IMG/VR virus record: IMGVR_UViG_3300045974_000132
Location: 155,740-219,739 of that record
Strand: one strand, 5' to 3'
Origin: a virus
DNA: 64,000 nucleotides
Positions 8,458 to 53,006 of the stretch are shown here, piece by piece. Each line of letters begins with the position of its first letter. Position 1 is the first letter of the stretch. The notes under the pieces were generated by a model. It worked only from the letters and a program-made list of their open reading frames with translations, was not told the origin of the DNA and made no database searches. A program made the translations under genes and the position numbers.

Positions 8458-8487
8458 CTTGAGCCTCACGTTCACGTTTATAGTATG

Positions 8488-8736
8488 TTAGTACCGCATA
8501 CTCTTTCGATTACCCGGTAGATTCTTTAAGCCTTCACGCAACTGTTTAGCTCTAAGCTTCGGCTTCTCAGTAGGCTCAATAACTTCAGATTTAGGCAAAT
8601 AGAAAGTTTGAATTCGATTGTCACGGTGGTGTGGACAATTGTAGCAACTACCTGTGATAGTTAGACTCTCGCTTTGCTTAAAGCAAGGTCCTGTGTATGC
8701 GCACCCAGTAACAGATATAGGAGAAGAACAAAACAT
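8488..8736 (-). CDS. Cys-rich hypothetical protein (82 aa)
   Basis: ATG 8736, GAGG site. Six Cys in the first 40 residues, ending CYNCPHH, suggest a metal-binding knuckle. The remainder is basic. It lies just downstream of tRNA-Ser. Confidence 0.6.
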   Translation of the reverse strand: MFCSSPISVTGCAYTGPCFKQSESLTITGSCYNCPHHRDNRIQTFYLPKSEVIEPTEKPKLRAKQLREGLKNLPGNRKSMRY

Positions 8737-8752
8737 ACACTACCTCATGTGT

Positions 8753-8842
8753 TGGCGGGAGCGGTGGGATTCAAACCCACGAATGTGTTTCCACATTGCC
8801 GGTTTTCAAGACCGGTGTATTCAATCGCTCTACCACACTCCC
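8753..8842 (-). tRNA. tRNA-Ser (UGA)
   Basis: Class II tRNA of 90 nt: acceptor GGGAGTG / CGCTCCC, anticodon arm CCGGT-CTTGAAA-ACCGG, long variable arm (AATGTGGAAACACATT hairpin), T-arm GTGGG-TTTGAAT-CCCAC, discriminator G and encoded CCA. The variable arm and G73 are serine identity features. An ATAAAGTTT junction immediately precedes it. Confidence 0.92.
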
Positions 8843-8849
8843 TAAAACT

Positions 8850-9974: not shown

Positions 9975-9989
9975 AACAACCCCTGTTTA

Positions 9990-10178
9990 TTATTTTTTTG
10001 AGTATTGACGACGCTGATTAGGGCGCGTTAACACCCGTACAGCTACCTCCAGCGGAACACCCAAACAGCCACAAACTAAGGCAGCATCTTGAACAAAGCC
10101 CATTTCAGCTATTCGGATCGCTTTTTCAACTTCCCGTGCAGTTTCAAAATCAGTACGTTTCACTTTAGCAGATTTCAT
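9990..10178 (-). CDS. Small hypothetical protein (62 aa)
   Basis: ATG 10178; the ribosome-binding site is weak. Helical, basic, with VCGCLGVPLEVAVRVL near the middle resembling a helix-turn-helix core. It lies directly upstream of the winged-helix protein. Confidence 0.55.
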   Translation of the reverse strand: MKSAKVKRTDFETAREVEKAIRIAEMGFVQDAALVCGCLGVPLEVAVRVLTRPNQRRQYSKK

Positions 10179-10185
10179 AGTTATA

Positions 10186-10564
10186 CCACATAAATTTTCT
10201 ATAGAGCCTTAAATTAGAAAGCTTATGTGGTAAGACTCAGAAGTGCTTAACACCGTCTGAGTCAAACCGGTGTAGCTTGCGTTGTGCCAAGCAGCAATTC
10301 TCGATGGGATAGTATTGAGAAAAGCCGCATTGACTGCACCTTGCAAACTACTGATTATTCTCGCCTAAAGCGCATGGTCATCACCCTTATATAATGTTCT
10401 ATATGTATGCTTGTATATAGAACCCTACTTAGATTTAAGAACTATATTAGACGTAACATTAAGTTACCCTCCAAAAGAGTTCGCTATGAGCGTAGCGGGA
10501 GCTTCTGTTCACAAGCTTGCCGGCCCGACTCTCACGGGCAGTACCTAGGGCGAAGAGTTAAAGA
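10186..10564. other. Non-coding structured region (about 380 bp)
   Basis: Holds CCACATAA / TTATGTGG (10186-10230), then GACTCAGA / TCTGAGTC (10234-10263), then on the minus strand GTTCTATAT / ATATAGAAC near 10400. Two tiny minus-strand frames with good ribosome-binding sites (5 and 8 codons) are present but are too short to call. Probably one or more structured RNAs. Confidence 0.45.
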
Positions 10565-10999
10565 CTACTTCTTCTTTTTGCTACCGAACGTCATCTTCTT
10601 GTAGTCAGAAGGAACGACCAGAGCTTCGGGTTTGATACCACGCAACGAAGGCAGAGGCATCACGATACCAGCCAGAGGCAAGTAGTTGGACGACTCGTTA
10701 CCGTAGTCAATAGCAGTGTCAATATGAGCAAGCATACGCTGGGCTTCAGCGATAGAAGCACGGGCATTACGAATCGCCACAACTTGCTGAAACTTGACCG
10801 TCTCTGCCTGGTCGATGATAGCGATGATCGAATCAGCAGCACGTTCTGCCTTTTCAACGTCACGCTGCTCCAGACGCTTCTTCATAACCGCTTGCAAATG
10901 CTCAGGAAGCTTCTCGCTGACTTTGGCTTCCTTCGACAAGTCGGTGTCAGCCAGCATTGCCAAAGCTTCGAGATTGATTTGGTTGGTACAACACGACAT
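10565..10999 (-). CDS. Hypothetical helical protein (144 aa)
   Basis: ATG 10999 with a strong AAGGAG site. Long amphipathic helices between residues 25 and 95, with Lys/Glu heptad-like spacing, suggest coiled coil; the C-terminus is a Lys-rich tail (GSKKKK). No family recognised. Confidence 0.65.
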   Translation of the reverse strand: MSCCTNQINLEALAMLADTDLSKEAKVSEKLPEHLQAVMKKRLEQRDVEKAERAADSIIAIIDQAETVKFQQVVAIRNARASIAEAQRMLAHIDTAIDYGNESSNYLPLAGIVMPLPSLRGIKPEALVVPSDYKKMTFGSKKKK

Positions 11000-11018
11000 A
11001 CGTTTTCTCCTTGGAAAG

Positions 11019-11234
11019 TTATGTTTGCATTTCAGTTAAGATTACCTTAACGCCTTTAAGACGTTCAGCAATCTCAGGATCAGACTTAGCCAATTTCTTA
11101 GCATTGTGAGTCTCACCTAGCTGGACTACAACTTCGCAGCCTAGAGACTCTAAATAATGAGCTATAGCAGCCATTGCATAGCCTTTACCGGACTTATCAG
11201 GCCCTTCAATACTCACTCTTAGAGTATCGGGCAT
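11019..11234 (-). CDS. Truncated P-loop kinase-like protein (71 aa)
   Basis: ATG 11234, AAGGAG. The start IEGPDKSGKGYAMAAIAHYL is a Walker A region like that of thymidylate kinases (GxDxSGK), but the usual Thr/Ser after Lys is Gly and the protein stops after the second strand, without lid or Walker B. It is either a reduced domain or a broken kinase that kept its start. It immediately follows PhoH in the operon. Confidence 0.6.
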   Translation of the reverse strand: MPDTLRVSIEGPDKSGKGYAMAAIAHYLESLGCEVVVQLGETHNAKKLAKSDPEIAERLKGVKVILTEMQT

Positions 11235-11244
11235 ATTAAACTCC

Positions 11245-12063
11245 TTATGAAGTAGCTGCCACTATATGAATAGAAGGAGCAGCAAGTTTTGCATACAACT
11301 CAGTCACACCGTTTTCTTTATACAAGTGCGACAAGAAGGAACGAACAAAGCCTGAACGAACAATGTCTTCTAACTGAAAGACTGTTATTGGGATGTCAAA
11401 GCCATTACGTTGGGCAAAGGCATGCAACCACAAAAGCCCACTTTCTCCCTTTAGATCGTTTTGGAAGGGATCTCCAAGAAGTACAATACGACCTGACTCA
11501 TAGCGAGTAATGATTGCGATCATGTCCTCTTCGTCAAGGTTTTGAGCTTCGTCAATGATTACAAACTTGTTGATGAATGAACGCCCACGTACATACTCAA
11601 AGGGAAGCATTTCAATCTGCCCTTTGTTAAGCATGTAATCTACTTTAGGACCAAGATGGCGACGTAAGCTATCAAGAATAGGCATTAGCAAAGGAGTCAT
11701 CTTATCTTCTTTGCTGCCTGGCAAGAAACCTACTGTTTCACCGCGCAACACATTAGCGCGTGTTAGAACAAACCCATCAACAAGGTCTGCTAAAAACATC
11801 TGAGCAGCAACCCCTGCTGCACAGTATGTCTTACCTACGCCCGCTGGCCCAATTGCCGCACATACTTCACTGTCCTTAAGAGCATTGATAAAATGACGCT
11901 GATTAACAGTCTTGGGAAGGAGTTCAACACGCCACGATTCGCGCTCACGAAACTTTTTATGCTTCTCACTTTCGGCTATACGCTCAAGATCCCGCTGCGT
12001 GTCACGGAGTCGACTCTTATTAGAGGACTTAGGGATACTCTTGACCTTATTGCTGCGCGCCAT
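11245..12063 (-). CDS. phoH: PhoH-like ATPase
   Basis: 272 aa from ATG 12063 (AAAGG). Walker A GPAGVGKTY near residue 75, Walker B FVIIDEAQN near 170, and LGDPFQND as the following motif are diagnostic of PhoH/PhoL RNA-helicase-like ATPases. The first 50 residues are basic and disordered. PhoH genes are frequent in large and marine phages; the role is unclear, with links to RNA metabolism and phosphate stress. Confidence 0.93.
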   Translation of the reverse strand: MARSNKVKSIPKSSNKSRLRDTQRDLERIAESEKHKKFRERESWRVELLPKTVNQRHFINALKDSEVCAAIGPAGVGKTYCAAGVAAQMFLADLVDGFVLTRANVLRGETVGFLPGSKEDKMTPLLMPILDSLRRHLGPKVDYMLNKGQIEMLPFEYVRGRSFINKFVIIDEAQNLDEEDMIAIITRYESGRIVLLGDPFQNDLKGESGLLWLHAFAQRNGFDIPITVFQLEDIVRSGFVRSFLSHLYKENGVTELYAKLAAPSIHIVAATS

Positions 12064-12630
12064 ATTGAACCTTTGATGATATGGGAGGAAGAAACTTTAA
12101 ACTCTGTACGACTCTCAGGTGGGGTCTAGCTTGCAAGGCCAAACCACACGAGGCAGTCGTGCACAACTACTTCTATTCACTAGAGCAAGGTAATAGCTTA
12201 CCTATTAATCTATGCTAGGTTGCTCTAGCTAACCGTCCGACCTTTGGCTGTCGTCCCCGCTCAAGCTGGCTTCACTGAGTTTCCTCTCCACTGTCTCGAT
12301 CTGCTGCTCCGAAGAGCTTCAACAAGGACACGCTTGACCCACTGTGCAATCTAAATACTCAGCTAGACACCTAAGGGGATAGGTACCGGCTTATGCTAGA
12401 CCGTTACAAGTATTCGATAAGATTAACAACTTTCCATCGACGTACCCTAGCGCGTATAACGAAATCACGGCTCCAACATTGTAAGACTTTCCAATCATTG
12501 CTTAAACCGCTGTACCCTGGCCGGGGCCTTCAATTCTGCTATACTCGGGCTATTCGGTAACTGACTACACAGACTACTCTTGCATTTTTCGGTGGTGGCC
12601 TTTAATGTGCGCCTCACGGCGTTAAGGTTT
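12064..12630 (-). ncRNA. Candidate large structured RNA (about 540 nt)
   Basis: No gene in 557 bp. The outermost pairing is AAACTTTAA (12092-12100) with TTAAGGTTT (12622-12630), one G-U. Inside lie GTACGACT / AGTCGTGC (12107-12162), CTAGAGCAA / TTGCTCTAG (12180-12228) enclosing GGTAA / TTACC, and a GC-rich hairpin near 12600-12628. The complexity and length fit a large phage ornate RNA; the class cannot be named by eye. Confidence 0.5.
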
Positions 12631-12861
12631 CTGCAATTTTTGTATTTCTTCAAATCTACCTAAAGCTGTGGCCAGTTCAGCGCGAGCTTTACCCACTTGC
12701 TTTTCAGCAACACCGTATAGGTGCGCATGAGCAGCATCCCAAGTGTCGAAGCGTAAAATTTCGCGCATCGCAGGAGGATTAAAGTCAGACGCAACCTCTT
12801 CACGACTTATATTAGTTGATATACCTGGGTAGCGTAAAACAAATTGAATTTTAGTATCCAT
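12622..12861 (-). CDS. Hypothetical protein (79 aa)
   Basis: ATG 12861 preceded by AGG at nine bases; the stop of the nucleotidyltransferase gene lies just before it. Soluble, helical C-terminal half (KARAELATALGRFEEIQKL). The neighbour suggests it could partner the nucleotidyltransferase, but no antitoxin family is recognised. Confidence 0.6.
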   Translation of the reverse strand: MDTKIQFVLRYPGISTNISREEVASDFNPPAMREILRFDTWDAAHAHLYGVAEKQVGKARAELATALGRFEEIQKLQKP

Positions 12862-12862
12862 G

Positions 12863-13441
12863 TTAACTACCTGCGCGTCGTTTTGCATCGTTAAACTTAG
12901 ATAACTGATCTTCAGTTAAGAACTGTTCCCAGCCCTCTAAGATTAGATCCGGATGAGAAGACAAGATTGAAACAATGTCATTCAAGTCTTTGAACTCGCG
13001 CTTCAACGTGTTAGCACCAAACAACTTTAGAACAACCATTGCCTCCTTAGAAGCAACAAGTATCCCGTCATGGTTTACTGCGGTGTGTATCACCTTCTTA
13101 GCAACGGGTATAGGTAGTTCAATTGAAGCAGGTGTTGTAAGCTCAATATCAACCTGCGTTTTGTTTTCTTGAAAGGCACCTGGCCTATAACGCTTGAAGC
13201 CCTTGACTTCAGTAGGTACTAAAGCTTTACTAAGAAACAGAAGGTCTACGTCTTCAGTGTAACGAGGCTTTGCATAGAAAGACATTGCAAGTCCGCCGAT
13301 TAAAACACCGGGAGCTTCTGTACCTACTTTAGATTTAATCCAAGCAAGTAAAGCATGTTGCACTTCAGGAACTAAGGCTACATGCTTTACCTCAGATACT
13401 GCCGACGCATACACAGACATGTTACGAAGTATCAGTTCCAT
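12863..13441 (-). CDS. Nucleotidyltransferase, AbiEii/AbiGii-like fold
   Basis: 192 aa from ATG 13441 (AGGAG). GVLIGGLAMSFYAKPRYTEDVDLLFL is the nucleotidyltransferase signature, GG...R.T.DVDL, with metal-binding Asp pair; VASKEAMVVLKLFG and KDLNDIVSIL match the following helix region of AbiEii-like proteins. Such enzymes add nucleotides to tRNA or proteins and act as toxins in abortive-infection systems. As a phage gene beside tRNA genes it may act on tRNA, or counter host defence (inference). Confidence 0.75.
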   Translation of the reverse strand: MELILRNMSVYASAVSEVKHVALVPEVQHALLAWIKSKVGTEAPGVLIGGLAMSFYAKPRYTEDVDLLFLSKALVPTEVKGFKRYRPGAFQENKTQVDIELTTPASIELPIPVAKKVIHTAVNHDGILVASKEAMVVLKLFGANTLKREFKDLNDIVSILSSHPDLILEGWEQFLTEDQLSKFNDAKRRAGS

Positions 13442-13535
13442 CGTTGCTCCTAAAGAAAGAAGACCGGGCTTCCACCGGCAGCAAGATTAAGCCGAAGCAA
13501 CCTCTCTGCGTCAGATTTGGTATCCGACGACTTTC

Positions 13536-13570
13536 TGGTAGGCCCGGTCAGACTTGAACTGACGACCAAA
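13536..13570 (-). pseudogene. 3' half of a split tRNA
   Basis: Minus strand GGTC-GTCAG-TTCAAGT-CTGAC-CGGGCCT-A-CCA: intact T-arm, acceptor strand and CCA. The acceptor pairs with AGGCCTG at 14320-14326 (one G-U), across tRNA-Met/Ile and the HNH gene. Confidence 0.7.
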
Positions 13571-13587
13571 TACTTAAACTAACTTAG

Positions 13588-13662
13588 TGGGCCCAACTGG
13601 ATTTGAACCAGTGACCCTCCGGTTATGAGCCGGGCGCTGCTAACCAACTGAGCTATAGGCCC
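13588..13662 (-). tRNA. tRNA with CAU anticodon (elongator Met or Ile2)
   Basis: Acceptor GGGCCTA / TGGGCCC, T-arm CACTGG-TTCAAAT-CCAGT, anticodon loop CTCATAA on a CCGG stem with one mismatch at the base. CCA is not encoded (CTA follows). It is not initiator type, as no CGCGGGG acceptor is present. CAU could be read as Met, or as Ile if C34 becomes lysidine. Its 5' end is 1 nt from the HNH stop. Confidence 0.85.
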
Positions 13663-13663
13663 T

Positions 13664-14254
13664 CTAAGTAAGCTTTCGTCCTCTACCTAGCTTAGGCAAT
13701 AGAGTACGGCAAATTTTGGTATAGCTGCTTTTAACATGACTATAAGTATCACCGCGCAACATTGAGAACAGGGTAAGAGGATGCACATCTAACTCTTCTG
13801 CTAGTTCATGATGGGACAATTCATACTCAGAAAAGTATTTCCTAAGGCGTTTAACTTCACTATCTAAAAACTTTGAATTAGGTCTAAGCTCACCTCGAGG
13901 ATCAACGCGCAAACCTGTTGCCAGTGCGTGTTTCACATTACCGGAATTAGTTGTCAATTCAAGATTTGTTAATCGACAGTTAGCTTTAATCCCATCACGA
14001 TGGTTTAACTGTAGTTCAGAGTCCTCTGGTATCCCCTTAAAGTGCGCCCATACAAGCCGGTGCAATTGTATCTGACGAATCTTTTTAGAGTTAGGATCTT
14101 GCCAAGATAGCTTTCGATATCCTTTTGAAGAAGGAGTCTTAGCTACTTCCTTACCTGAAATCAAATTAAAAGCTTTACCAGACTTCGTAACTTTTAACTT
14201 ACCTGAGTTTATCAGGCTAAGAAAGAAGCGTTCATTTCTAAGGTTTGCCGCCAT
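13664..14254 (-). CDS. HNH homing endonuclease adjoining tRNA-Met/Ile
   Basis: 196 aa from ATG 14254. IQLHRLVWAHFKG...LQLNHRDGIKANCRLTNLEL is an HNH active site of the NUMOD4-HNH type (His and Asn-His-x-Asp-Gly), followed by TTNSGNVKHA. The C-terminal 60 residues (HHELAEELDVHPLTLFSMLRG) form a helix-turn-helix for target recognition. Its stop is 1 nt from the tRNA, and the HNH-tRNA pair interrupts another tRNA, evidence of homing into a tRNA gene. Confidence 0.9.
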   Translation of the reverse strand: MAANLRNERFFLSLINSGKLKVTKSGKAFNLISGKEVAKTPSSKGYRKLSWQDPNSKKIRQIQLHRLVWAHFKGIPEDSELQLNHRDGIKANCRLTNLELTTNSGNVKHALATGLRVDPRGELRPNSKFLDSEVKRLRKYFSEYELSHHELAEELDVHPLTLFSMLRGDTYSHVKSSYTKICRTLLPKLGRGRKLT

Positions 14255-14287
14255 GAGGTTAGAGCAGAGTAGTGGTATAGCTCATAA

Positions 14288-14326
14288 ATTAGTATCCTCT
14301 GCTCTGACCAACTGAGCTACAGGCCT
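14288..14326 (-). pseudogene. 5' half of a split tRNA
   Basis: AGGCCTG-TA-GCTC-AGTTGGTCA-GAGC-AGAGGA on the minus strand: acceptor strand, complete D-arm and the start of an anticodon stem, then unrelated sequence. It pairs with the 3' half at 13536-13570. ATAAAGTTT precedes it as it does intact tRNAs. Confidence 0.7.
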
Positions 14327-14334
14327 AAAACTTT

Positions 14335-14488
14335 ATAAGGTTGCTTACATTCTCGATCACCTACCACCAGTAAGTCAGTGTCGATAGTTGTGATACGCTC
14401 AACGTGCAGCCCACAACTCCTATGCACGTTAAAGCTCAACTTCATCTGGACTATACATCGACCAGTCTAGGTGTTAAGCAAACCTTAT
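14335..14488 (-). ncRNA. Candidate structured RNA between split tRNA and ACP
   Basis: Closed by ATAAGGTTGCTTA with TAAGCAAACCTTAT (one-base bulge); inside, ACGTGCA / TGCACGT forms a second stem. No gene. Confidence 0.5.
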
Positions 14489-14757
14489 TGGGTAGCAGCA
14501 GCTTCGTAATAATATTCCTTGAAGTGCTTTAAGAAATCTGACAGCGTAGATTTGATAGTCACCTTAGGGCGGAAGCTATCGTCAAGCATCGTATTAAAGG
14601 TTTCTTCAACAAGAAGGATTAACTCAAACATGTCCATCGAGTCTAAATCTAAGCCTTCTAAAGTATCAGACAGACTTGCTTTGCAGGAACGATCATCTGA
14701 AAACAGTTTCAGGAATTGCTCTTGCAAAACATCTTCTTTCAGTTTTAAATTAGTCAT
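14485..14757 (-). CDS. Acyl carrier protein
   Basis: 90 aa from ATG 14757. LEGLDLDSMDMFELILLVEETF carries the Asp-Ser-Met-Asp motif with the phosphopantetheine-attachment Ser at about residue 40, followed by the acidic recognition helix. Length and helix pattern match AcpP. It would carry acyl chains if host phosphopantetheinyl transferase modifies it. Phage ACPs are rare; possible uses are diverting host lipid synthesis or acylating a phage component (inference). No acyltransferase is adjacent; a histone-like gene lies upstream. Confidence 0.87.
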   Translation of the reverse strand: MTNLKLKEDVLQEQFLKLFSDDRSCKASLSDTLEGLDLDSMDMFELILLVEETFNTMLDDSFRPKVTIKSTLSDFLKHFKEYYYEAAATQ

Positions 14758-14814
14758 AGCACAAATGAAGAAACAGGATGACCGAAGCCACCCTGTTTAT
14801 CAATACCTCGAAGG

Positions 14815-15189
14815 TTACTGACGGGACTTGCGTGAAGACTTCTTGCCATCCTTGGAACCGCGCGAAGACTTTTCGGCCTTCTTCGGTTCAGCAGCAGCGG
14901 CCGCTTTCTTAGCAGCACGGGTAGAAGTCTTGGCCGGAGCAGCAGCCTTAGCAGGAGCAGCTTTGGCAGCAGCAGCAGCAGCTTTGGCCGGGGCAGCTTT
15001 GGCGGTTGCCGCAGCAGCACGGGTAGAGCGAGCCGGAGTCTTTTCGCCAGCGGTGCCGATTGCCGAAGATTGAGCAATAGTTTGATTGACAGCTTCGACA
15101 GCATCAGCAACAGCCTTCTTGGCAGCGTCGATAGCTTTGTTGGCAGCAACCAGAGAAGAAATAGCCTTCTTGAGAGTACGAGAATTCAT
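14815..15189 (-). CDS. Histone H1-like Ala/Lys-rich protein
   Basis: 124 aa from ATG 15189 (AAGGA). The first 45 residues form an Ala-rich amphipathic helix; the rest is low-complexity Ala-Pro-Lys (AAPAKAAAPAK) ending in Arg/Ser/Lys (SSRGSKDGKKSSRKSRQ). Composition resembles eukaryotic H1 and bacterial AlgR3/HctB-type tails and predicts DNA compaction. First of a set of charged low-complexity proteins between 14.8 and 20.1 kb. Confidence 0.75.
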   Translation of the reverse strand: MNSRTLKKAISSLVAANKAIDAAKKAVADAVEAVNQTIAQSSAIGTAGEKTPARSTRAAAATAKAAPAKAAAAAAKAAPAKAAAPAKTSTRAAKKAAAAAEPKKAEKSSRGSKDGKKSSRKSRQ

Positions 15190-15277
15190 TGTTGTATTCC
15201 TTATATATGTAAAGTTGGGGAGAACATTACGCCCTCCCCTTTAAAACAGACTACTTGGTTAGTGCAATGAGACGGAA

Positions 15278-16372
15278 TTACTCGTCGTCATCACCCCAAT
15301 CTTCGTCATCTTCTTCATCATCTTCTTCATCATCTTCTTCGTCGTCGGAGTCTTCATCATCCTCGTCATCTTCTTCGTCGTCGTCGGAGTCTTCATCATC
15401 CTCGTCATCACCTTCTTCGTCATCTTCTTCATCATCTTCTTCGTCGTCGTCGGAGTCTTCATCATCCTCGTCATCACCTTCTTCGTCGTCGGCATCTTCA
15501 TCATCGCCGTCTTCGTCGTCATCACCTTCTTCTTCGTCGTCCTCGTCTTCTTCCTCAGCAGCCTTACGACCTCGCTTGGCTTTCGGAGCAGCGACTTCAG
15601 CAGCAGACGCATCTTCTTGGGAGAAGACTTGAACTTCGACGCCTGCATCATTGTTGGTGTTGATGATAACGGTTTCGCCATCAGTCGTCGTAACCTGAAT
15701 CAGGCCGCCTTCCAGTTGCGAAACTTCGCCTTGATACTCGGCCAGCGTGACCGTCTTGTAAACGTACAGCGTTGCGTCTTCACCTTCGTTGCCCTTGATA
15801 GAGACAACATCCTTCAGCGGGAAGGTAGAGACTTGGACACGCTTGCTGCGTTCCTTAGCATGACGGAACACGACATTCTCGGTAGAGAACGAAACGAGTT
15901 GACCTTCAAGCTGAACAACCAGGCGGCTGACAAGAGCGATTTGCTGACCTTCGTCAACGCCCTTGGAAGCCTTGGAACCGCGACGCGGAGCCTTGGTAGC
16001 TTTTTCGGTTGCAGCAGCGCCTCGACGCGAAGACTTCGCCGGAGCAGCTTTTGCAGTACGTGTAGTCTTGGCAGGAGCTGCCTTTGCAGCAGCGGCACCA
16101 CGACGGCCACGAGCCGGCTTTTCTTCAACTTCTTTTGCAGCACGACGACCACGTGCCGGCTTTTCAGCGGCAGCAGCCTTGCTTGAGCGAGTAGAGCGTG
16201 CCGGCTTTTCAGCAGCGGCAGCAGCGCCACGACGACCACGAGCCGGTTTTTCTTCAACTTCCTTTGGTGCGCGACGACCGCGAGTAGAGGTCTTTTCAGC
16301 GGCAGCAGCGCCACGACGGGTTGAGGTCTTTGCCGGGGCAGCCTTGGAACTACGGGTTGATGCACGAGCCAT
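15278..16372 (-). CDS. Basic-core-acidic tripartite protein (364 aa)
   Basis: ATG 16372. Residues 1-140 are basic repeats of EKPARGRR / STRSSKAAPAK type; residues about 140-265 form a compact beta-rich domain; residues 275-364 are almost entirely Asp and Glu with imperfect DDEDSDDDEEDDEE repeats (DNA repeats at 15300-15540). Similar EKP-R-R repeats occur in the recombinase and the 18995-20050 protein. The charge layout suggests nucleic-acid binding with self-association (inference). An ACTGTAAATA element lies 54 nt upstream. Confidence 0.75.
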   Translation of the reverse strand: MARASTRSSKAAPAKTSTRRGAAAAEKTSTRGRRAPKEVEEKPARGRRGAAAAAEKPARSTRSSKAAAAEKPARGRRAAKEVEEKPARGRRGAAAAKAAPAKTTRTAKAAPAKSSRRGAAATEKATKAPRRGSKASKGVDEGQQIALVSRLVVQLEGQLVSFSTENVVFRHAKERSKRVQVSTFPLKDVVSIKGNEGEDATLYVYKTVTLAEYQGEVSQLEGGLIQVTTTDGETVIINTNNDAGVEVQVFSQEDASAAEVAAPKAKRGRKAAEEEDEDDEEEGDDDEDGDDEDADDEEGDDEDDEDSDDDEEDDEEDDEEGDDEDDEDSDDDEEDDEDDEDSDDEEDDEEDDEEDDEDWGDDDE

Positions 16373-16425
16373 TTGTTACTCCTTGTTGATAAAGGTTTGT
16401 TGTATTACGTTTGTTACAACTGTTA

Positions 16426-16433
16426 TTTACAGT
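16426..16433 (-). promoter_or_regulatory. ACTGTAAATA promoter element
   Basis: AAAACTGTAAATAACAG on the minus strand, between the stop of the 356-aa gene and the start at 16372. Best-match copy of the phage element. Confidence 0.5.
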
Positions 16434-16480
16434 TTTCGGGAAAACCCAAATTGTACTTCGGGTAGAACTACATCGGACAA

Positions 16481-17551
16481 TTATTCGTTGTCGTCTTCTT
16501 CACCGGCAGCTTCTTCTTCCTCGTCCCCTTCGTCTTCATCTGCAAAGACATGAGAGAACAGAAGAATATCAGTACCGTTGACGAACAAGCTGTCAGCGTC
16601 CTTCGGACTGATCCACGGTTCCTTGCCAAGAGACACAGAATTACGTGACACCAGAGCAAAGCCTTCTTCCGGAGAAAGAAGGATGTCAAGCAATTCACGA
16701 TTTTCAGGTTCTTGCAAAGAGTCGCTAGAGATAGCAACACCGACGTATGGGTTTAGAACTTCTTCGCCCATCTTTTCCAGGATACCGCGAACGAACGAGA
16801 TAGCACGGATGATGAACTTGTGCGGTTCAGGCGAATCGTACAGCGCCGCTGCATTGATGACCAAGTTGAGATTGATAACCGAATTGACAACGCTGGTCTC
16901 TTCGTCGAGAGCAACAACTGTCCAGGTCTTCAACGTGAACAGGTCTCCGAACTTGAGGTCGAAGTCAGTGCCGTCCACGACCAGTTCAAGAAGTGTTTCA
17001 TCTTGAGAAAGCGGGAACTTGCGAAGAATATCACGTACCAGGCCTTCAGCGACTTGCTGCACGATAGGTTGCAGATCGACGGGCTTGCCGATATACGAGA
17101 CTTCACGATTTTGTGCAGCACGAACGATATTGACGATCTTGCCGAAGACACGACGCAGAACGCCTTCGCTCAGATTCTTGGCGCCGTTTGCCTTCAAGAA
17201 CGGATTGTGAAAGTTGAAAGTTTCTTCGGTGCCCGGTGTTACTTCCAGCGTAACAGACTTCAGTTCTTTCAAACCCTTCATGTACGGAGTACCGTAGCTG
17301 AGGGTAACGAACGGAAGAACCGTGATCGTATTGATCGAAGGAGCATTGAGAAACTTCAGCTCCTGCGCGATTTCTGCGTCGAGCGGATCGACAACAACAA
17401 CGGGTACGGGAGTAGCAGCACTGATACCGCCGATAGTAGCAATCGGCTTTTCAGGAGCAGCATCAGCAGCTTGAGCAGCCAGCTGTGCGTCAACCTTCAC
17501 GAGACCCGCGTCAAAATTCACGGCACCTTGATGATGTTCAGTTTGAGACAT
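16481..17551 (-). CDS. Hypothetical protein with acidic tail (356 aa)
   Basis: ATG 17551, AAGGAG site. Mixed alpha/beta body of about 330 residues with no family I recognise, ending DEGDEEEEAAGEEDDNE. The tail matches the acidic ends of neighbouring proteins. Its size, leader and adjacency to charged proteins suggest an abundant, possibly DNA-associated, late product (inference). Confidence 0.7.
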   Translation of the reverse strand: MSQTEHHQGAVNFDAGLVKVDAQLAAQAADAAPEKPIATIGGISAATPVPVVVVDPLDAEIAQELKFLNAPSINTITVLPFVTLSYGTPYMKGLKELKSVTLEVTPGTEETFNFHNPFLKANGAKNLSEGVLRRVFGKIVNIVRAAQNREVSYIGKPVDLQPIVQQVAEGLVRDILRKFPLSQDETLLELVVDGTDFDLKFGDLFTLKTWTVVALDEETSVVNSVINLNLVINAAALYDSPEPHKFIIRAISFVRGILEKMGEEVLNPYVGVAISSDSLQEPENRELLDILLSPEEGFALVSRNSVSLGKEPWISPKDADSLFVNGTDILLFSHVFADEDEGDEEEEAAGEEDDNE

Positions 17552-17598
17552 TTAAAACTCCTTGTCGGTAAGGATAAACAAAATGTTACTAGACGATA

Positions 17599-17606
17599 TT
17601 TACAGA
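17599..17606 (-). promoter_or_regulatory. ACTGTAAATA-like promoter element (TCTGTAAATA)
   Basis: Minus-strand AATCTGTAAATATCG, 48 nt before the start at 17551; one mismatch from the common core. Confidence 0.4.
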
Positions 17607-17621
17607 TTTTACTACCTGCCG

Positions 17622-18260
17622 TTATTCAATAAGAAAACGGTAATAATGCCCACTATAGTTTTCGCCGGTAGTGTAGTATTGACCCATATCAGCGATAGAC
17701 TTCACAGAGGTTACAGCTAAAACTTTTATTACAAAACCTACTTCGTCGACTTCAATAGCAGATACGGTTTTTCCTTTCTGCAAAGCTTCACCTATTCGAC
17801 GAACCCAAAAGCCACGACCCCGTGTAGATTGCGTGTTGTCGCTAATAATCTTAGAATACTTCGGATAGAGTCGATTGGTAAACAACCATTCAGGCAGGTT
17901 GGTAGTAAGATCGTAAGCTCCGTTTCGCCACACACTAACTTGGCCACACGCTTTGCTATGAAGCTTCCCTGTAAGATCGTAGTGTCGAACTCGTGCACCG
18001 TATTGAATCATGTCGGGGTCGTCACCTATATTAGCATGAACAAAATAGAAATCGGCTCCACCATCCTCCACCAGCAACACAGGTACCTTGCCACCTGTTG
18101 CAGTATAGGTTGCAACTACTTCGGCACGTTTAAGCAAAGACTTCAACTTTGCTGCGTTCTTTGCCTTGGACCTAGACCATTCTGGCTTGTACGTTCCTTC
18201 AAGCAAGTACGGCATAGAAAGAGATATGTGAGGAGTAGCAACAGTGAGAGATAGTTCCAT
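17622..18260 (-). CDS. Hypothetical protein (212 aa)
   Basis: ATG 18260, AAAGGA. Soluble alpha/beta protein with a basic segment around residues 28-48 and an aromatic C-terminus (GHYYRFLIE). No diagnostic motif. It lies just downstream of tRNA-Leu. Confidence 0.65.
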   Translation of the reverse strand: MELSLTVATPHISLSMPYLLEGTYKPEWSRSKAKNAAKLKSLLKRAEVVATYTATGGKVPVLLVEDGGADFYFVHANIGDDPDMIQYGARVRHYDLTGKLHSKACGQVSVWRNGAYDLTTNLPEWLFTNRLYPKYSKIISDNTQSTRGRGFWVRRIGEALQKGKTVSAIEVDEVGFVIKVLAVTSVKSIADMGQYYTTGENYSGHYYRFLIE

Positions 18261-18279
18261 ATTGCATCCTTTAAATAAG

Positions 18280-18290
18280 TGGTGCCCGTA
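18280..18290 (-). pseudogene. 3' tip of a split tRNA-Leu-like gene
   Basis: Minus-strand TACGGGC-A-CCA. Its CGGGC can pair with the GCCCG start of the tRNA-Leu-like fragment at 18870-18890. The fragment is short, so this rests partly on the same arrangement at two other loci. Confidence 0.4.
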
Positions 18291-18299
18291 GCACTTTAT

Positions 18300-18384
18300 T
18301 GGTGGGCGGAAAGGGACTCGAACCCTTACACCTTGCGGCTGCGGGTTTTAAGCCCGCTGCGTCTACCGATTTCGCCACCCGCCC
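18300..18384 (-). tRNA. tRNA-Leu (UAA)
   Basis: Class II, 85 nt: acceptor GGGCGGG / TCCGCCC, D-arm TGGCGAAATCGGTAGACGC, anticodon arm GCGGG-CTTAAAA-CCCGC, variable arm GCCGCAAGGTGT, T-arm AAGGG-TTCGAGT-CCCTT, encoded CCA. All leucine hallmarks are present. Its 5' end directly abuts the last base of the HNH reading frame. Confidence 0.93.
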
Positions 18385-47227: not shown

Positions 47228-47590
47228 TTAAGAGGATATGCGCTGCGTAACAGTTGCCCCGTTCTCAAGGTCTTCAGAAACCTCAACAGAACAATTGCGA
47301 ACACCGTAGCAGGAGTTCAAATACCCGATCACATTATGTGCAATCATTTCACAAGATCGGTGTTGCAGATCAGTACCTGTTAAGAACTTATCCAGCCCAC
47401 GTTTGACCAAGATGAACTCAAGTTCACGATCATCATGGAAGACTTCAATAGTTGCCTTCACATGAAAGATGTGTCGGTGAGGGCTACGAAGGAATGCTAC
47501 TTCATCAGGGGCATCTGGGTAGCAATGAATGCCTTCAAAAGAAGTAGTAACAAAGATCGTAGTATGGCAGGAAGTAATCACAGGGACCAT
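47228..47590 (-). CDS. queD: QueD/6-pyruvoyl-tetrahydropterin-synthase-like protein
   Basis: 120 aa from ATG 47590. FEGIHCYPDAPDEVAFLRSPHRHIFHV matches the QueD/PTPS fold with its zinc-binding His set (first His then H-x-H). QueD makes carboxytetrahydropterin, an early precursor of 7-deazaguanines. This short phage type is often only a distant homologue, so catalytic activity is uncertain. The DpdA-like gene 4 kb away makes a DNA 7-deazaguanine pathway plausible. Confidence 0.65.
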   Translation of the reverse strand: MVPVITSCHTTIFVTTSFEGIHCYPDAPDEVAFLRSPHRHIFHVKATIEVFHDDRELEFILVKRGLDKFLTGTDLQHRSCEMIAHNVIGYLNSCYGVRNCSVEVSEDLENGATVTQRISS

Positions 47591-48531
47591 TTGTCAGCCT
47601 CAATGTGTTTGAAGAACTCAATAGTTTTCAGAACGCCATCTTCTAAGGGCAGATACAGACGCTTAGAAAAGACACGCTTATACTTAGACAAGTCAGGCTT
47701 ACGCACTTTGGGATCATCCGCCGGTAGGTCTTTGTGGATGAATTGATCGAACTTAGTTAAGCGCCCTACAATATCTGCAAGTTGCTCAATTGTAAACTCT
47801 TGGTCATTGCCTAAGTTCATCGGCCCATAGTTGTTATCGTTTGTCATGACCTGCCAGAGCATATCAATCATATCACTAACGTAACAGAAGCTACGAGTCT
47901 GCTCACCTGAACCATAGATTGTAATAGGCTTGCTTTCGAGAGCTTGAGTGATAAAGTTTGAAACTACCCGTCCGTCGTTGTAGGCCATGTTAGGCCCATA
48001 AGTGTTGAACAGTCGAACAACACGGATATCAACGTTGGTAGTACGCTTATAATCTGCACAAAGCGTTTCAGCAGCCCGCTTACCTTCATCGTAGCAAGCA
48101 CGTGGGCCAGTGATACTTACGTTGCCGTTGTACGACTCAGGCTGCGGATGTACTTCAGGGTCACCGTAAACTTCAGAAGTAGAGGTGAACAGCATACGTG
48201 CGCCTGTCTTGTTGGCAAGATCAAGCATGTTTTTCGTGCCGATAACAGAAGTCATCAACGTCTTAATCGGATCACGCGAATACCACTCAGGGCTTGCAGG
48301 ACAAGCTAAGTGATATATGTAATCCAGATCAGACAGATAGAAACCAGTATCACAAACATCCAAATTGATGAAGTGAAAGTTCTTATGTTGCAGGAAGGGC
48401 TTAATGTTAGCACCCGATGAACAGCTAAGGTTGTCCAAACAGAACACTTCATTGTTGGGATTGCAGAGCAGTCGATAGCAAAGATTACTACCTAGAAAAC
48501 CTGCACCGCCTGTTACTAGAATGCGTGACAT
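47578..48531 (-). CDS. UDP-glucuronate decarboxylase-like epimerase
   Basis: 317 aa from ATG 48531. N-terminal GGAGFLGSNL binds NAD; LACPASPEWY, TSTSEVYGDPEVHPQPE and GPRACYDEGKR are the hallmark of UDP-xylose synthase, with the Tyr-x3-Lys pair. It should convert UDP-glucuronate to UDP-xylose. Flanked by a glycosyltransferase and the modification genes, it likely supplies a pentose donor for phage DNA or a capsid or host glycan (inference). Confidence 0.9.
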   Translation of the reverse strand: MSRILVTGGAGFLGSNLCYRLLCNPNNEVFCLDNLSCSSGANIKPFLQHKNFHFINLDVCDTGFYLSDLDYIYHLACPASPEWYSRDPIKTLMTSVIGTKNMLDLANKTGARMLFTSTSEVYGDPEVHPQPESYNGNVSITGPRACYDEGKRAAETLCADYKRTTNVDIRVVRLFNTYGPNMAYNDGRVVSNFITQALESKPITIYGSGEQTRSFCYVSDMIDMLWQVMTNDNNYGPMNLGNDQEFTIEQLADIVGRLTKFDQFIHKDLPADDPKVRKPDLSKYKRVFSKRLYLPLEDGVLKTIEFFKHIEADKWSL

Positions 48532-49724
48532 TACAATCTTCCTTGTGTTAGAGCATAACAGATTTGAGTATCACCGATGTAGTGTTCCATGAGCATACCG
48601 GACTGCTGCAATAGACCATTACTTCCATAAGAAGGATCATCAAACTGCGTAAGCATTTCCTTGATCTTATTAACCAATTCTTCTTTATGGGCAAGATAAC
48701 TTTCAAAGCTAAGTGTCCATTCAGAAGGATACAAGAAACGTTTGAAGTACATTTCGGAGTACGACAAACGATCAGGGCTTAGAGACATGGCACCTGCAAA
48801 GATAGCTTCTGTCTGTGCAATACCGTAAGTCTCCTGCAGTGCTGCGGAGAATACAAGCTTGCTGCGACCTAGAAGATCATGATACTCGGGTTTAGTCAGT
48901 TGCTTTTCCTGACACACAATAAACTTGTAGTCCTCATATCCAGGTTCATTAGCAAACGTGTTTTCAAGGTCGTAGAAGATTTCAATTTGCTTCTCAGGAG
49001 CAATACGATGTGGGAAGAGAATGATGTTCTCTTTAGGCTTTACACTGTAGGGCGCAAGCTTATCAAACAGATACGAATTCGGATAGCCTACCCGCAGAAT
49101 CTTTTCACGAAGACTTGCCTGTGTTTCGTCACCCGCTAGTAGGTAGTCCCTTAGCCTTGAGAAGAATAGCTTGATATAAGCCTCGGTAGTGAATAGGTTT
49201 ATATCAATAGCGTGAAACAAAGATGCTTCAAAAGCAGGAGCCCATTCACTCTTGATCTTACGCCCTAAGAAGTCATTGGGGTCATGCCAACCCGCGTGCC
49301 ATTGCCCAACAATAGTAACAGGGATGTCAAGCAAGTCCGACATGTAGCGCACTTGGATGATTGCAGGATTCCAAGCATCTGTGAAGTAGAACACATCGCC
49401 AGGCTGAACACGATCATTATGGAAGTGATCTGCAATCTTTTGAGCCTGTGAAGACTTCCAAACATTCGTAGAAGCAAAGTTAATGAAGGCACCAGTAGAA
49501 GCATCTTGCGTAGGCATATCGCCTTCGATGTTAACCAAACGGACCTCGGGTGTATTATACTCACGGAAGTGGGCATAGTGCCACGCATCATCTTGGCGCA
49601 AAAACTTGATGTTGTTTTGAGCGCAATACTTTTCAATCATTGCAGGGATGTGATCTGCCCACTCATACGTGTAACGAGTTTCAATCTTTTCCAGTGGCAC
49701 CAGCCAGATTGTTTTCATAGTCAT
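48531..49724 (-). CDS. Glycosyltransferase, GT-B/GT4-like
   Basis: 397 aa from ATG 49724; its stop overlaps the epimerase start. The C-terminal half shows LFPHRIAPEKQ and SKLVFSAALQETYGIAQTEAIFAGAM, the nucleotide-sugar-binding E-x7-E pattern of GT4 enzymes. The coupling to the UDP-pentose synthase suggests a UDP-xylose-type donor. The acceptor is unknown; DNA bases are possible. Confidence 0.82.
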   Translation of the reverse strand: MTMKTIWLVPLEKIETRYTYEWADHIPAMIEKYCAQNNIKFLRQDDAWHYAHFREYNTPEVRLVNIEGDMPTQDASTGAFINFASTNVWKSSQAQKIADHFHNDRVQPGDVFYFTDAWNPAIIQVRYMSDLLDIPVTIVGQWHAGWHDPNDFLGRKIKSEWAPAFEASLFHAIDINLFTTEAYIKLFFSRLRDYLLAGDETQASLREKILRVGYPNSYLFDKLAPYSVKPKENIILFPHRIAPEKQIEIFYDLENTFANEPGYEDYKFIVCQEKQLTKPEYHDLLGRSKLVFSAALQETYGIAQTEAIFAGAMSLSPDRLSYSEMYFKRFLYPSEWTLSFESYLAHKEELVNKIKEMLTQFDDPSYGSNGLLQQSGMLMEHYIGDTQICYALTQGRL

Positions 49725-49726
49725 GG

Positions 49727-49906
49727 TTATTTAATCTCAGGAATGCACATCATCAAAGCTTTATGGGCTTCTTCAACGTGACGGACGTAAACTACTACTC
49801 CATCATTCATATCATTGATTGCTGCCTTCGTACAAGCCAGTTGAACATCAGTAGGCGTTATAGGAAGCAGAGCGTATTTTGTTTCGTCGTAGGTGATTGT
49901 TTTCAT
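49727..49906 (-). CDS. Small hypothetical protein (59 aa)
   Basis: ATG 49906 inside the end of the HAD gene; weak ribosome-binding site. Unknown. Confidence 0.5.
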   Translation of the reverse strand: MKTITYDETKYALLPITPTDVQLACTKAAINDMNDGVVVYVRHVEEAHKALMMCIPEIK

Positions 49907-50316
49907 AAGATGCAAAGATCGGACAGAGTTAGTACCGCTATGTTAGGGCGCAATTCTGCTATGCGTGATGCGATCTTCTCACAGCTTTCTACAAAGATGG
50001 TAATATTGTTTTCGTCGATAGCGTTTACTTTGAATAGAGCAGACTCTTCTGTATCCAAAACCTTATCTTCAGAATTATGTACGACACGGCACCGCAATTG
50101 GAAATAATTCTGTGCCCAAATATAAGTATCGTGATAGTCAGAAGACGGACGACCTGTAACAATGTAGAAGTGTTCATGCTGCGGTATGAACAAAGGCTTC
50201 AGATGATACCTAGCCTTAACTACCGACATTAATTGTTCTTGTGATAAACCTTCTACGTTAATGTCAGGGCATAATATTCCGTCAAGATCATACCCATAAA
50301 TGTCAGCTAGTCCCAT
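49903..50316 (-). CDS. HAD-superfamily phosphatase-like protein
   Basis: 137 aa from ATG 50316. YGYDLDGILCPD is HAD motif I (Asp-x-Asp), IVTGRPSSD motif II. The small size suggests a nucleotide or sugar phosphatase such as those in base-modification pathways; substrate unknown. Coupled to the phosphoribosyltransferase. Confidence 0.78.
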   Translation of the reverse strand: MGLADIYGYDLDGILCPDINVEGLSQEQLMSVVKARYHLKPLFIPQHEHFYIVTGRPSSDYHDTYIWAQNYFQLRCRVVHNSEDKVLDTEESALFKVNAIDENNITIFVESCEKIASRIAELRPNIAVLTLSDLCIL

Positions 50317-50773
50317 ATTTACTACTCCCTTCGCTAAACAAATTCTTATCGCCTACTGTTACTTTACAGCTTTCTTCATTTGGCATAATAAGCCATTTGT
50401 CTTTAGCAACTTCTCCGACTAAATCTACTTCGTAGTCACCTACCTGGAATACCGCAGAGTACATAACTTCTTTGTTAGGGAAGAATTTGTCAAGGTAGTA
50501 TTTAACTAGATCGAATGTACGTCCTTGATCGACCATGTCATCGACGACCAACAATCGTTGAAATAGGTCTAGACCTGCCGATTGGGTCATATGACCATAT
50601 CGAATAATAAAAGCAATAGGTAGGTTCAATGCTTTAGCAATGATATGGGAAGCAGTCATGCCCCCGCGGGCAATACAAAGTACAGCGTCTGGCCTAAACA
50701 GTTGAGCCTGCTCTGACATGCTCAAACAAAGAGCTTTAAACTCAGTGTAAGGAACTTCATAAGGTTGGATCAT
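50303..50773 (-). CDS. Phosphoribosyltransferase
   Basis: 156 aa from ATG 50773. LLVVDDMVDQGRTF is the PRPP-binding motif, ARGGMTASHIIAK the pyrophosphate loop. Closest in layout to xanthine/guanine-type enzymes. It could salvage a modified purine or attach ribose to an unusual base. Confidence 0.85.
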   Translation of the reverse strand: MIQPYEVPYTEFKALCLSMSEQAQLFRPDAVLCIARGGMTASHIIAKALNLPIAFIIRYGHMTQSAGLDLFQRLLVVDDMVDQGRTFDLVKYYLDKFFPNKEVMYSAVFQVGDYEVDLVGEVAKDKWLIMPNEESCKVTVGDKNLFSEGSSKYGTS

Positions 50774-51618
50774 ACATAGTCCACTGCGATAGGAAAGTCA
50801 GGTAGTGCTAAACGAGTCTCTACCTGACGTTGATAGAAGTCACTATGATCTTCCAGATTATCACTCCAGTCGAACGTCTTCATACCTACATGCTCAATAT
50901 AAGCACCAAGCATCAAGTAGATAGGGACTTTGTTCTCGACCAGAGCTTCTTGGATCATGCAGTCATAGCCGCGCATACCTTTCTTCCAATTACTCATTGA
51001 CTCAAGAACAGACCAAGCACAATTGTTGTAATGGAAGAGGAAGAATCTAACAGGAATTATCCAGCCGTTGCTGATATAGTCAGTACGAATAACTTCTGTT
51101 TTATCCGTAGCCCATTTCTGGTGAGCAACGCTCTTGATACCAAAACGTTCAACGAAAGGAACAAGATGGTGCATATAACGAAGCTCATTACTCCAGTCGT
51201 CATAGCTATGAACATTCATAACGTCAACCGCCGCGCACGTTATAACTTTGTTCTTACAGAAGCCTTGACGAATAGCATACTGAAGCAACGCCAACGTCTT
51301 GTAAGGAAATATATGGTCATCATCAACATTGAATACCAGATCAGTAGTAAGCAGTTCCCTTATAACGCGTGCCTTCGATTGAGCAACAGACAGTTCCGGT
51401 GAATGATTATGAATAACAAGAGTATTGTTATTAGCTTGGGCAATTTGCTGAAGCAAATAAAGATGCTCAAAGGTATCAGAATCATACTGGAAGCAAACAT
51501 GCCATCTAACGCATTCAACGTTGCTCAGAATGTTTGCCATTGTTGCAAATAACTCTGTCTTACGCCCTTGCCCTGTAACAGTCAGCAAGTTAAGAGCCAT
51601 GCCTCTGAAGTTTATCAT
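50770..51618 (-). CDS. Glycosyltransferase, GT-A/GT2-like
   Basis: 282 aa from ATG 51618 overlapping the previous gene. TTDLVFNVDDDHIFPY has the DxD metal-nucleotide motif of GT-A enzymes, preceded by a Rossmann-like strand order. Acceptor unknown. Confidence 0.78.
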   Translation of the reverse strand: MINFRGMALNLLTVTGQGRKTELFATMANILSNVECVRWHVCFQYDSDTFEHLYLLQQIAQANNNTLVIHNHSPELSVAQSKARVIRELLTTDLVFNVDDDHIFPYKTLALLQYAIRQGFCKNKVITCAAVDVMNVHSYDDWSNELRYMHHLVPFVERFGIKSVAHQKWATDKTEVIRTDYISNGWIIPVRFFLFHYNNCAWSVLESMSNWKKGMRGYDCMIQEALVENKVPIYLMLGAYIEHVGMKTFDWSDNLEDHSDFYQRQVETRLALPDFPIAVDYV

Positions 51619-53006
51619 TTCAGTTGATTCTCCAAGCTAGCCAGCAGATTAGAAGTACGCTCATACAATTCCTTCTGCGAAGACTTTTCAGAAGTAGAGG
51701 TTGTATCGAACAAAGACTGCGGTATGTCATCAGACTGACGCCAGTTGTTAATATGGCGCGCATACTTCTTCTGAGCTTCCTTAAGACCGTGCTGTGTAAC
51801 CACATCAATGTAATCGAGAGCCAGCTTAACGTCAGCTTTGTTCTTGATGTTCTTCAGTTGGAGTATAACGTACTTGTTATACTCATGAGGAGTAAGGTGT
51901 CGACAGGCTTCCTGAAGAGACTGGGTATATCGAGCCATCTGAATCGCATTGTGCAGCGCCAAAAATCCATTGAAGCGATTATGGCCGAATGCAAATATAT
52001 CCCGATACTTGATTGCTCCGCACACTGGGCAACTGCAATTTAGATGCAAAGCAGGGTTTGAGATACTACCTGCTTTAGTTCCGTATGCTTGCCTACTCAT
52101 AATGTGTTGCTCATTCATCTGAATATGGTAGACGTTATTCAGAGAGGCTTGAATGTGACTGGTACTGTCGCTAGTGATATGAGGAGGATTGTCACCGCTG
52201 TTTGCAATCTTAACCAGCAGAGCCAGATAAGACATATCAAACACACCTAGTGCGTGATATTGCTTATAGCGATACGACCCACCTTCAATGATCTCATATA
52301 ACGTGTTGACACCTGTGAGGGGCTTTTGTAGAAGAAGACCGCCGATAGCAACCCGCGGAATACGTTCGTCTTCAACAATGTCCCGATACTTTTTGCGATC
52401 TTCAACGCTGCCTCCGTGAAATATATTGATTAGCTCTAAGCCCTTACGCCCATTCTTCAGCATAACCTCATTGTTCTTACGCTGGAGAAGTGCTGCTCGT
52501 TTAGCGATCTTGTCATCCTTAATCCACAACGGAATGTCAAGTACCATACCTGCATCGACGTTCTTGTTGTAGAACTCAACCAAGTCTTTCGGATGAATCA
52601 GTCCAGCTACTTCCCGTGCTAATTGCAGACCGCCGCTGTCAGAAAGAATTTGAACTTTCTTTGCACTAGCAGGCAGGGAATCACGATTGATAGCTTCACT
52701 ATTGTTATGCGTGAAGTTGGTCATGAAGTAGTCGATACCAATACCTGCGCCAAGATCATCACGGAAGGTATTTAGATCGAGACACAGATCAAAGGATTCA
52801 TTCGGATAGAACGCATCATCGTTGAATGAGTCCCGGACGAACACGAATTCCCGATCAGGACAATCATACCAGATATAGTTCTTATCTACCCGTTTAATGG
52901 TGATTTCGTTAGACTTTGTTTTCTTGTATTTGACATAGATAGTCAAGCCGCCATAATTCTGAAACAAGTTGGCGGCCGCCACAAACCGATAGCCGTTGAA
53001 GTCCAT
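51615..53006 (-). CDS. dpdA: DpdA-like DNA/tRNA-guanine transglycosylase
   Basis: 463 aa from ATG 53006. ILSDSGGLQLAR (general-base Asp123), VLDIPLW (Asp157), ELINIFHGG, VAIGGLL and ITSDSTSHIQ match tRNA-guanine transglycosylase, and CSCPVC plus LALHNAI give its Zn site (Cys-x-Cys-x2-Cys...His). The overall length and insertions fit phage DpdA enzymes, which replace guanine in DNA with 7-deazaguanines. QueD-like protein, two glycosyltransferases and a phosphoribosyltransferase next to it suggest further decoration of that base. Confidence 0.84.
   Translation of the reverse strand: MDFNGYRFVAAANLFQNYGGLTIYVKYKKTKSNEITIKRVDKNYIWYDCPDREFVFVRDSFNDDAFYPNESFDLCLDLNTFRDDLGAGIGIDYFMTNFTHNNSEAINRDSLPASAKKVQILSDSGGLQLAREVAGLIHPKDLVEFYNKNVDAGMVLDIPLWIKDDKIAKRAALLQRKNNEVMLKNGRKGLELINIFHGGSVEDRKKYRDIVEDERIPRVAIGGLLLQKPLTGVNTLYEIIEGGSYRYKQYHALGVFDMSYLALLVKIANSGDNPPHITSDSTSHIQASLNNVYHIQMNEQHIMSRQAYGTKAGSISNPALHLNCSCPVCGAIKYRDIFAFGHNRFNGFLALHNAIQMARYTQSLQEACRHLTPHEYNKYVILQLKNIKNKADVKLALDYIDVVTQHGLKEAQKKYARHINNWRQSDDIPQSLFDTTSTSEKSSQKELYERTSNLLASLENQLK

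Follow-up and report, generated by a model that had tools for sequence, protein, structure and literature searches.

We analysed a window of 64,000 nucleotides from the IMG/VR virus record IMGVR_UViG_3300045974_000132, a 286,393-base sequence of a large bacteriophage in which the window spans positions 155740-219739. The window contains an operon of eight tightly packed, intact open reading frames (ORFs) on the minus strand, reading from 53006 down to 47228. Based on the genes, their families, the folds of two proteins, conserved residues and the recurrence of the cluster in other phages, we predict with moderate confidence that its transglycosylase, DpdA, inserts a 7-deazaguanine derived from 7-carboxy-7-deazaguanine (CDG) into the phage DNA, and that the inserted base is then glycosylated. 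The genes, in reading order, are as follows.

51615..53006, minus strand: DpdA-like, predicted DNA guanine transglycosylase, 463 aa (family profile and catalytic residues)
50770..51618, minus strand: putative GT-A (GT2-like) glycosyltransferase, 282 aa (motifs and one diverged homologue)
50303..50773, minus strand: purine-type phosphoribosyltransferase (PRTase), 156 aa (PF00156)
49903..50316, minus strand: HAD-like phosphatase, 137 aa (DLDG motif and one diverged homologue)
49727..49906, minus strand: small ORF between the HAD-like and GT-B genes, 59 aa (read from the sequence)
48531..49724, minus strand: GT-B glycosyltransferase (GT4-like), 397 aa (AlphaFold model and signature residues)
47578..48531, minus strand: UDP-glucuronate decarboxylase (UDP-xylose synthase, UXS), 317 aa (human UXS1 match)
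47228..47590, minus strand: QueD-fold (T-fold) protein, 120 aa (PHROG 17812 and AlphaFold model)

Every gene named in the first-pass annotation was recovered as an intact minus-strand ORF, and its description of most genes as overlapping by a few bases agrees with the junctions, at each of which neighbouring ORFs overlap by 1-14 bases or lie 2 bases apart. The ATG of the 59-aa ORF overlaps the stop codon of the HAD gene, and a homologue search with this ORF found none. The composition of the operon is not distinct from that of the remainder of the window.

The DpdA protein alone gave no match to the Pfam TGT family, staying below all thresholds. Its homologues in 18 phage records share 26-34% identity with it in alignments covering 77-92% of the length, and an eight-member profile of the family matches archaeosine TGT with an E value of 2.6e-8. 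The DSGG, LD-P and CxCxxC motifs are invariant in all eight homologues. The catalytic residues of the window protein are Asp123 (in DSGG) and Asp157 (in LDIP), and both aspartates are kept across three DpdA subfamilies. The archaeosine TGT match and the invariant catalytic residues support the earlier assignment of this protein as a DpdA-like transglycosylase. Judged by sequence, it is an enzyme of the TGT superfamily with its catalytic residues in place, and its action on DNA is predicted. A scan of IMG/VR with the single DpdA or GT-A protein returned no relatives.

The first-pass annotation had regarded FolE, QueE and QueC as missing and as either supplied by the host or encoded elsewhere in the genome. 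The same record carries two of them (coordinates prefixed G000 refer to the whole record). FolE is located outside the operon at G000:19481-20143 (PF01227, E 3.7e-47), and the next gene encodes a long, divergent QueD of 311 aa (G000:20140-21075) that matches PF01242 over the cut-off. QueE, at G000:10679-11587, directly follows the gene of a family A DNA polymerase; its top five NCBIfam models are all QueE, each below its cut-off. QueC was not found: the whole record gave no PF06508 match at E values up to 1, in a search that was positive for 14 of 14 cellular control genomes. With FolE, QueD and QueE encoded and QueC absent, the phage's own enzymes would in principle suffice for CDG but not for preQ0.

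The T-fold protein encoded by the last gene belongs to PHROG 17812, and a profile search found at least 575 relatives in IMG/VR. Its AlphaFold model (pLDDT 92.4) has E. coli QueD as the best structural match (TM 0.75). In an alignment of 69 T-fold sequences, the zinc histidines His22, His38 and His40 together with Glu106 are invariant, as are Cys80, Arg39 and Arg55. All 69 also have a leucine (Leu34) four residues before the HxH motif, a position that we take to be that of the catalytic cysteine in QueD (CxxxHGH motif). Because this cysteine is replaced throughout and many genomes with a T-fold protein encode a separate QueD, the family is unlikely to function as 6-carboxytetrahydropterin synthase. 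A genuine QueD was considered for the window protein and rejected on the missing cysteine and the divergent QueD elsewhere in its genome. The earlier description of a QueD-like protein is therefore retained for the fold and the zinc histidines and abandoned for the function; from its sequence, the protein is probably not QueD. It may have retained a pocket that binds a pterin or a deazaguanine, and its probable role is to process CDG or to bind the base. Cui and colleagues reportedly named a CDG decarboxylase DpdL in 2023. By that description, the T-fold protein would resemble DpdL in acting on CDG in phages lacking QueC, whereas here the gene usually adjoins that of a glycosyltransferase.

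Searches of whole records for QueC gave a match above the cut-off in one of 12 complete isolates with the T-fold protein (Vibrio phage D479, a partial match) and a match below the cut-off in Xanthomonas phage X1. None of 12 IMG/VR records with the T-fold protein, several of which are fragments, contained QueC. In contrast, each of the five DpdA-bearing phages compared that lack the T-fold protein carries QueC (Peetri, PhiXhv-15, Motura, NCTB and GR7B; Fisher p 0.001-0.003, uncorrected for kinship or comparator choice). Judged by which genes are present, the T-fold protein therefore takes the place of QueC, and the lack of QueC in nearly all of its carriers points to CDG, not preQ0, as the precursor. 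In Achromobacter phage Motura, the DpdA homologue sits in an annotated QueD-QueC-asparagine synthetase-TGT-QueE-FolE cluster. There, QueC and DpdA flank the asparagine synthetase-like gene (L006, 7061-10365; L-numbers denote individual genome stretches), whose product could, by analogy with CmoY (PMC12783734), form an amide on a base that carries a carboxylate.

To describe the surroundings of the T-fold gene, we used a set of 106 T-fold loci. The T-fold locus L019 contains nearly the whole gene set of the window in one run, at 25-53% identity. Its order is Cas4-like, DpdA, HAD, PRT, a methyltransferase where the window has GT-A, then GT-B, UXS and T-fold, the HAD and PRT genes being swapped relative to the window. 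A further T-fold locus, L020, combines DpdA with a GT-A-like gene, T-fold, GT-B and ManC. That unrelated phages share the gene set indicates that the grouping is more than chance. Across the 106 loci, FolE occurs in 64, QueE in 47, QueD in 38, GT-B in 55 and some DpdA subfamily in 49; QueC occurs in none. The T-fold gene lies no more than 1.5 kb from GT-B in 51 of the 55 loci with both, and of the 49 loci that have DpdA, which involve three divergent DpdA subfamilies, 46 also have GT-B. Among the 66 loci with at least 6 kb of upstream sequence, 36 have both DpdA and GT-B, two only DpdA, seven only GT-B and 21 neither (Fisher p 2e-9, kinship ignored). The T-fold/GT-B pair is also found in isolates, namely the PA5oct/MIJ3/Paride/Callisto group, Acidovorax phage ACP17, Xanthomonas phage X1, Sinorhizobium phage Phosso and Synechococcus phage BUCT-ZZ01. 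In the stretches around the locus, QueE is present in all five isolate groups, FolE in all except PA5oct and DpdA in all except Phosso. A survey of jumbo phages notes a deazaguanine system in PA5oct, in a passage that draws no link to sugars (PMC7824862).

The GT-B protein gave only sub-threshold matches in Pfam. Its AlphaFold model (pLDDT 93) is closest in Foldseek to the GT4 enzyme BshA (E 7e-12). Arg240, Lys245 and Glu306 are invariant in the 38 family sequences, and residue 298, the first position of an E-x7-E signature, is Glu in 28 of them and Asp in the other 10. According to the model, the enzyme has a GT4-type GT-B fold with an Arg/Lys site for the donor phosphate and the E-x7-E signature, and we propose it as the base glycosyltransferase. 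No member of the family matched a Pfam model of a tRNA-queuosine glycosyltransferase. The best PDB match of UXS is human UXS1 (E 3e-95), with the STSEVYGDPEVHPQ and YDEGKR active-site motifs aligned, and its homologue in L019 is 49% identical.

The sugar genes that accompany the constant core differ among phages. UXS occurs in the window and L019, ManC in L020, GDP-mannose 4,6-dehydratase and a sugar cupin in L011, and UDP-glucose dehydrogenase with short-chain dehydrogenases/reductases (SDRs) in L021. The 90 non-core neighbours of GT-B include 14 SDR epimerases or dehydratases and nine DegT-type sugar aminotransferases. A constant core with changing sugar genes is what is expected of a glycosyltransferase with phage-specific donors, and we consider it the strongest argument for a sugar in the product. 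The earlier interpretation is supported in part: its central idea, that a 7-deazaguanine is placed in DNA by DpdA and a sugar is then attached to it, is strengthened by these T-fold/GT-B/DpdA/FolE/QueE clusters with swapped sugar genes, except that the PRTase, which had been counted in the attachment, is more simply placed in salvage. The T-fold locus L023 (10684-16490) has a sugar region that contains genes for a radical SAM/SPASM enzyme, a GT4-like protein, an SDR, an IMP dehydrogenase/GMP reductase and a PRTase, a set that suggests a tie between purine recycling and the pathway. In Xanthomonas phage PhiXhv-15 (L077, 3624-6858), a QueC-containing (Gat-QueC-like) gene adjoins genes for a deacetylase resembling BshB and a glycosyltransferase resembling BshA; here glycosylation and a deazaguanine pathway may be connected in a separate way.

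The PRTase matches PF00156 above the cut-off (E 2.7e-8) and is of the purine type, resembling xanthine PRTase. PRTases occur in 37 of the 106 loci, including loci without GT-B. The enzyme would more simply serve guanine salvage than sugar attachment, a role that would account for the repeated presence of PRTases next to FolE and QueE where GT-B is lacking. The HAD-like protein has a DLDG motif and one diverged homologue, in L019, which is itself a weak match to HAD_SAK_2; the family is present in only two T-fold loci. Immediately upstream of its FolE gene, the phage encodes a second HAD-type protein (L009, 18988-19494; HAD_SAK_2, E 5e-9). The GT-A protein had no match in Pfam, PDB or the phage collection, and it shares NVDDD and KGxRGYD...H motifs with its homologue in L020 (25% identity).

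We interpret the operon as the insertion and decoration half of a two-locus pathway of DNA hypermodification. FolE, the divergent QueD and QueE would convert GTP to CDG. The T-fold protein, in the place of QueC, would most likely decarboxylate CDG to 7-deazaguanine, or hand CDG on, and DpdA would swap guanines in the phage DNA for the CDG-derived base. GT-B would then glycosylate the inserted base from UDP-xylose, made by the UDP-glucuronate decarboxylase, or from a close derivative; the acceptor would be the carboxylate if CDG is inserted and C7 if it is decarboxylated. The putative GT-A could extend the sugar to a disaccharide, and the PRTase would return the guanine released by DpdA to GMP. 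We infer the order of these steps, the chemistry of the T-fold protein, the attachment point, the identity of the sugar, the roles of the HAD-like protein, PRTase and GT-A, and protection against nucleases as the purpose.

Several observations weigh against this pathway. Obvious acceptors are few: a carboxylate in the case of CDG and no more than a ring carbon in that of 7-deazaguanine. A search of the phage genome for UDP-glucose dehydrogenase found none, so UDP-glucuronate must come from the host. The GT-A and HAD assignments rest on motifs and one diverged homologue each. On the T-fold tree, the DpdA and GT-B traits both change 12 times, and four contrasts fall on well-supported branches; after correction for the tree, 3.4 of the four agree on average and none disagrees (p 0.125, an underpowered test). 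The linkage of DpdA and GT-B is thus consistent, but not formally significant after tree correction. Furthermore, a second class of T-fold loci, in the order QueE-QueD-PRT-FolE-T-fold, lacks GT-B and has no nearby DpdA, indicating that the T-fold protein is not specific to glycosylation. This class comprises L091, L095, L098, L099, L112 and related loci, with the phages phiST, MA9V-3, RHph_I1_18, D479 and Ahp1. Downstream of its T-fold gene are one or two genes for proteins of about 276 aa (PHROG 20335), which could be another base-insertion or modification enzyme, and then a dCTP deaminase-like gene.

DpdA might instead insert dCDG or 7-deazaguanine that stays unglycosylated, with the glycosyltransferases and UXS acting on proteins, lipopolysaccharide or capsule, for example to block superinfection. 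GT-B folds like the GT4 enzymes for small molecules and glycans, UXS homologues also occur in phages outside T-fold clusters, and some T-fold loci have no GT-B. In large phages, moreover, clusters of sugar and glycosyltransferase genes are predicted, in a passage of the jumbo-phage survey, to alter the host surface polysaccharide (PMC7824862). Nevertheless, GT-B stays within 1.5 kb of the T-fold gene and tracks DpdA across three subfamilies, as counted above, which is unexpected for a surface-glycan gene and argues against this explanation, and the neighbours of the cluster are DNA replication genes. We regard it as unlikely, although it is the main competing explanation and keeps an appreciable share of our confidence.

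Much less weight falls on a scheme like that of T-even phages, in which 5-hydroxymethyl-dU or -dC would carry the sugar and deazaguanine would play no part in it. The record does encode a protein of the thymidylate synthase family (G000:223611-224606; L165, 2612-3607) with a glycine in the motif ENIGFLQG. This glycine occupies the position of Trp80 in E. coli ThyA, so a hydroxymethylase role may be considered. However, the protein passes the thymidylate synthase cut-off of TIGR03284 (238.7 vs 108.35 bits), and the complete genomes of ACP17, X1 and BUCT-ZZ01, which have T-fold, GT-B and DpdA, contain zero matches to the family; for these two reasons a hydroxymethyl-pyrimidine acceptor is highly improbable. 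A ribosylation in which the PRTase and HAD-like protein attach the ribosyl group of phosphoribosyl pyrophosphate to the base, and the glycosyltransferases extend it, deserves equally little credence. The succession of a PRTase and a phosphatase is known from ribostamycin biosynthesis, and the two genes overlap in the window and are also direct neighbours in L019, but PRTases stand beside FolE and QueE in loci without GT-B as well, the HAD family is rare among the loci, and a PRTase of purine-base type fits guanine salvage. Finally, a pathway that makes a glycosylated base resembling queuosine in the tRNA of host or phage would accord with the TGT superfamily membership of DpdA, the glycosylated queuosine of animal tRNA (PMC8654956, PMC7384130) and the phage's own tRNA genes, but is very unlikely because characterised phage DpdA enzymes modify DNA and an E. 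coli tgt mutant was not complemented by dpdA of phage 9g (PMC6884629); the operon also has no queuosine-specific gene, and no member of the GT-B family matched a tRNA-queuosine glycosyltransferase model in Pfam. The minus strand of the window holds a gene resembling that of tmRNA (tag AANDASFRKAA) and six that resemble tRNA genes, at 1476-1862 and 2717-18384.

The proposed glycosylation of a CDG-derived base can be compared with known systems. The phage DpdA 7-deazaguanine modification (PMC6884629) likewise combines FolE, QueD, QueE and a DpdA-family transglycosylase in one genome, whereas the present phage has no QueC or amidotransferase and has instead the QueD-fold protein without the cysteine, a GT4-like glycosyltransferase and a nucleotide-sugar enzyme; the text of that study, which contains neither "glycosyl" nor "sugar", names no glycosylated product. 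Carboxymethylcytosine formed by CmoX and CmoY (PMC12783734) is similar in using a carboxylate on a DNA base as a handle for hypermodification, if CDG itself is inserted here, but its second enzyme is an amide ligase rather than a glycosyltransferase. Galactosyl- and mannosyl-queuosine in animal tRNA provide a precedent for a sugar on a 7-deazaguanine nucleoside (PMC8654956, PMC7384130), although there the nucleic acid is tRNA and the sugar is on a cyclopentene side chain, for which the phage has no genes. In the glucosyl-hydroxymethylcytosine of T-even phages (alpha-GT, beta-GT), enzymes with a GT-B fold likewise move a sugar from its nucleotide donor onto a DNA base after replication; here, the acceptor would be 7-deazaguanine, and the enzyme resembles GT4 members such as BshA. 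To our knowledge, sugars on phage DNA have been reported on hydroxymethyl-pyrimidines. No report of a sugar on deazaguanine in DNA was found in the part of the literature that was searched, which is not proof of absence. We rate the operon as an extension of known 7-deazaguanine DNA modification by glycosylation. A bolder proposal, which we make tentatively and with considerable doubt, is that of a widespread, undescribed system in which a CDG-derived base on DNA is glycosylated at C7 or at the carboxylate by an interchangeable cassette (xylose, mannose- or fucose-type, glucuronate-derived or aminosugar), the QueD-fold protein without the cysteine being a dedicated enzyme that links decarboxylation of CDG to glycosylation; the resulting DNA base would be a purine analogue with a sugar attached, possibly by a carbon-carbon bond.

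If a sugar is indeed attached to 7-deazaguanine, DNA glycosylation would extend to guanine positions and would place a bulky group in the major groove, where restriction enzymes and CRISPR nucleases read. Cultured relatives exist in ACP17, PA5oct, Paride, Callisto, Xanthomonas phage X1 and Synechococcus phage BUCT-ZZ01. The pathway, if true, would also hint at what PHROG 17812 does and at the function of the GT-B family, which is annotated as hypothetical in most records, among them those of the jumbo-phage group of Paride, a killer of dormant Pseudomonas.

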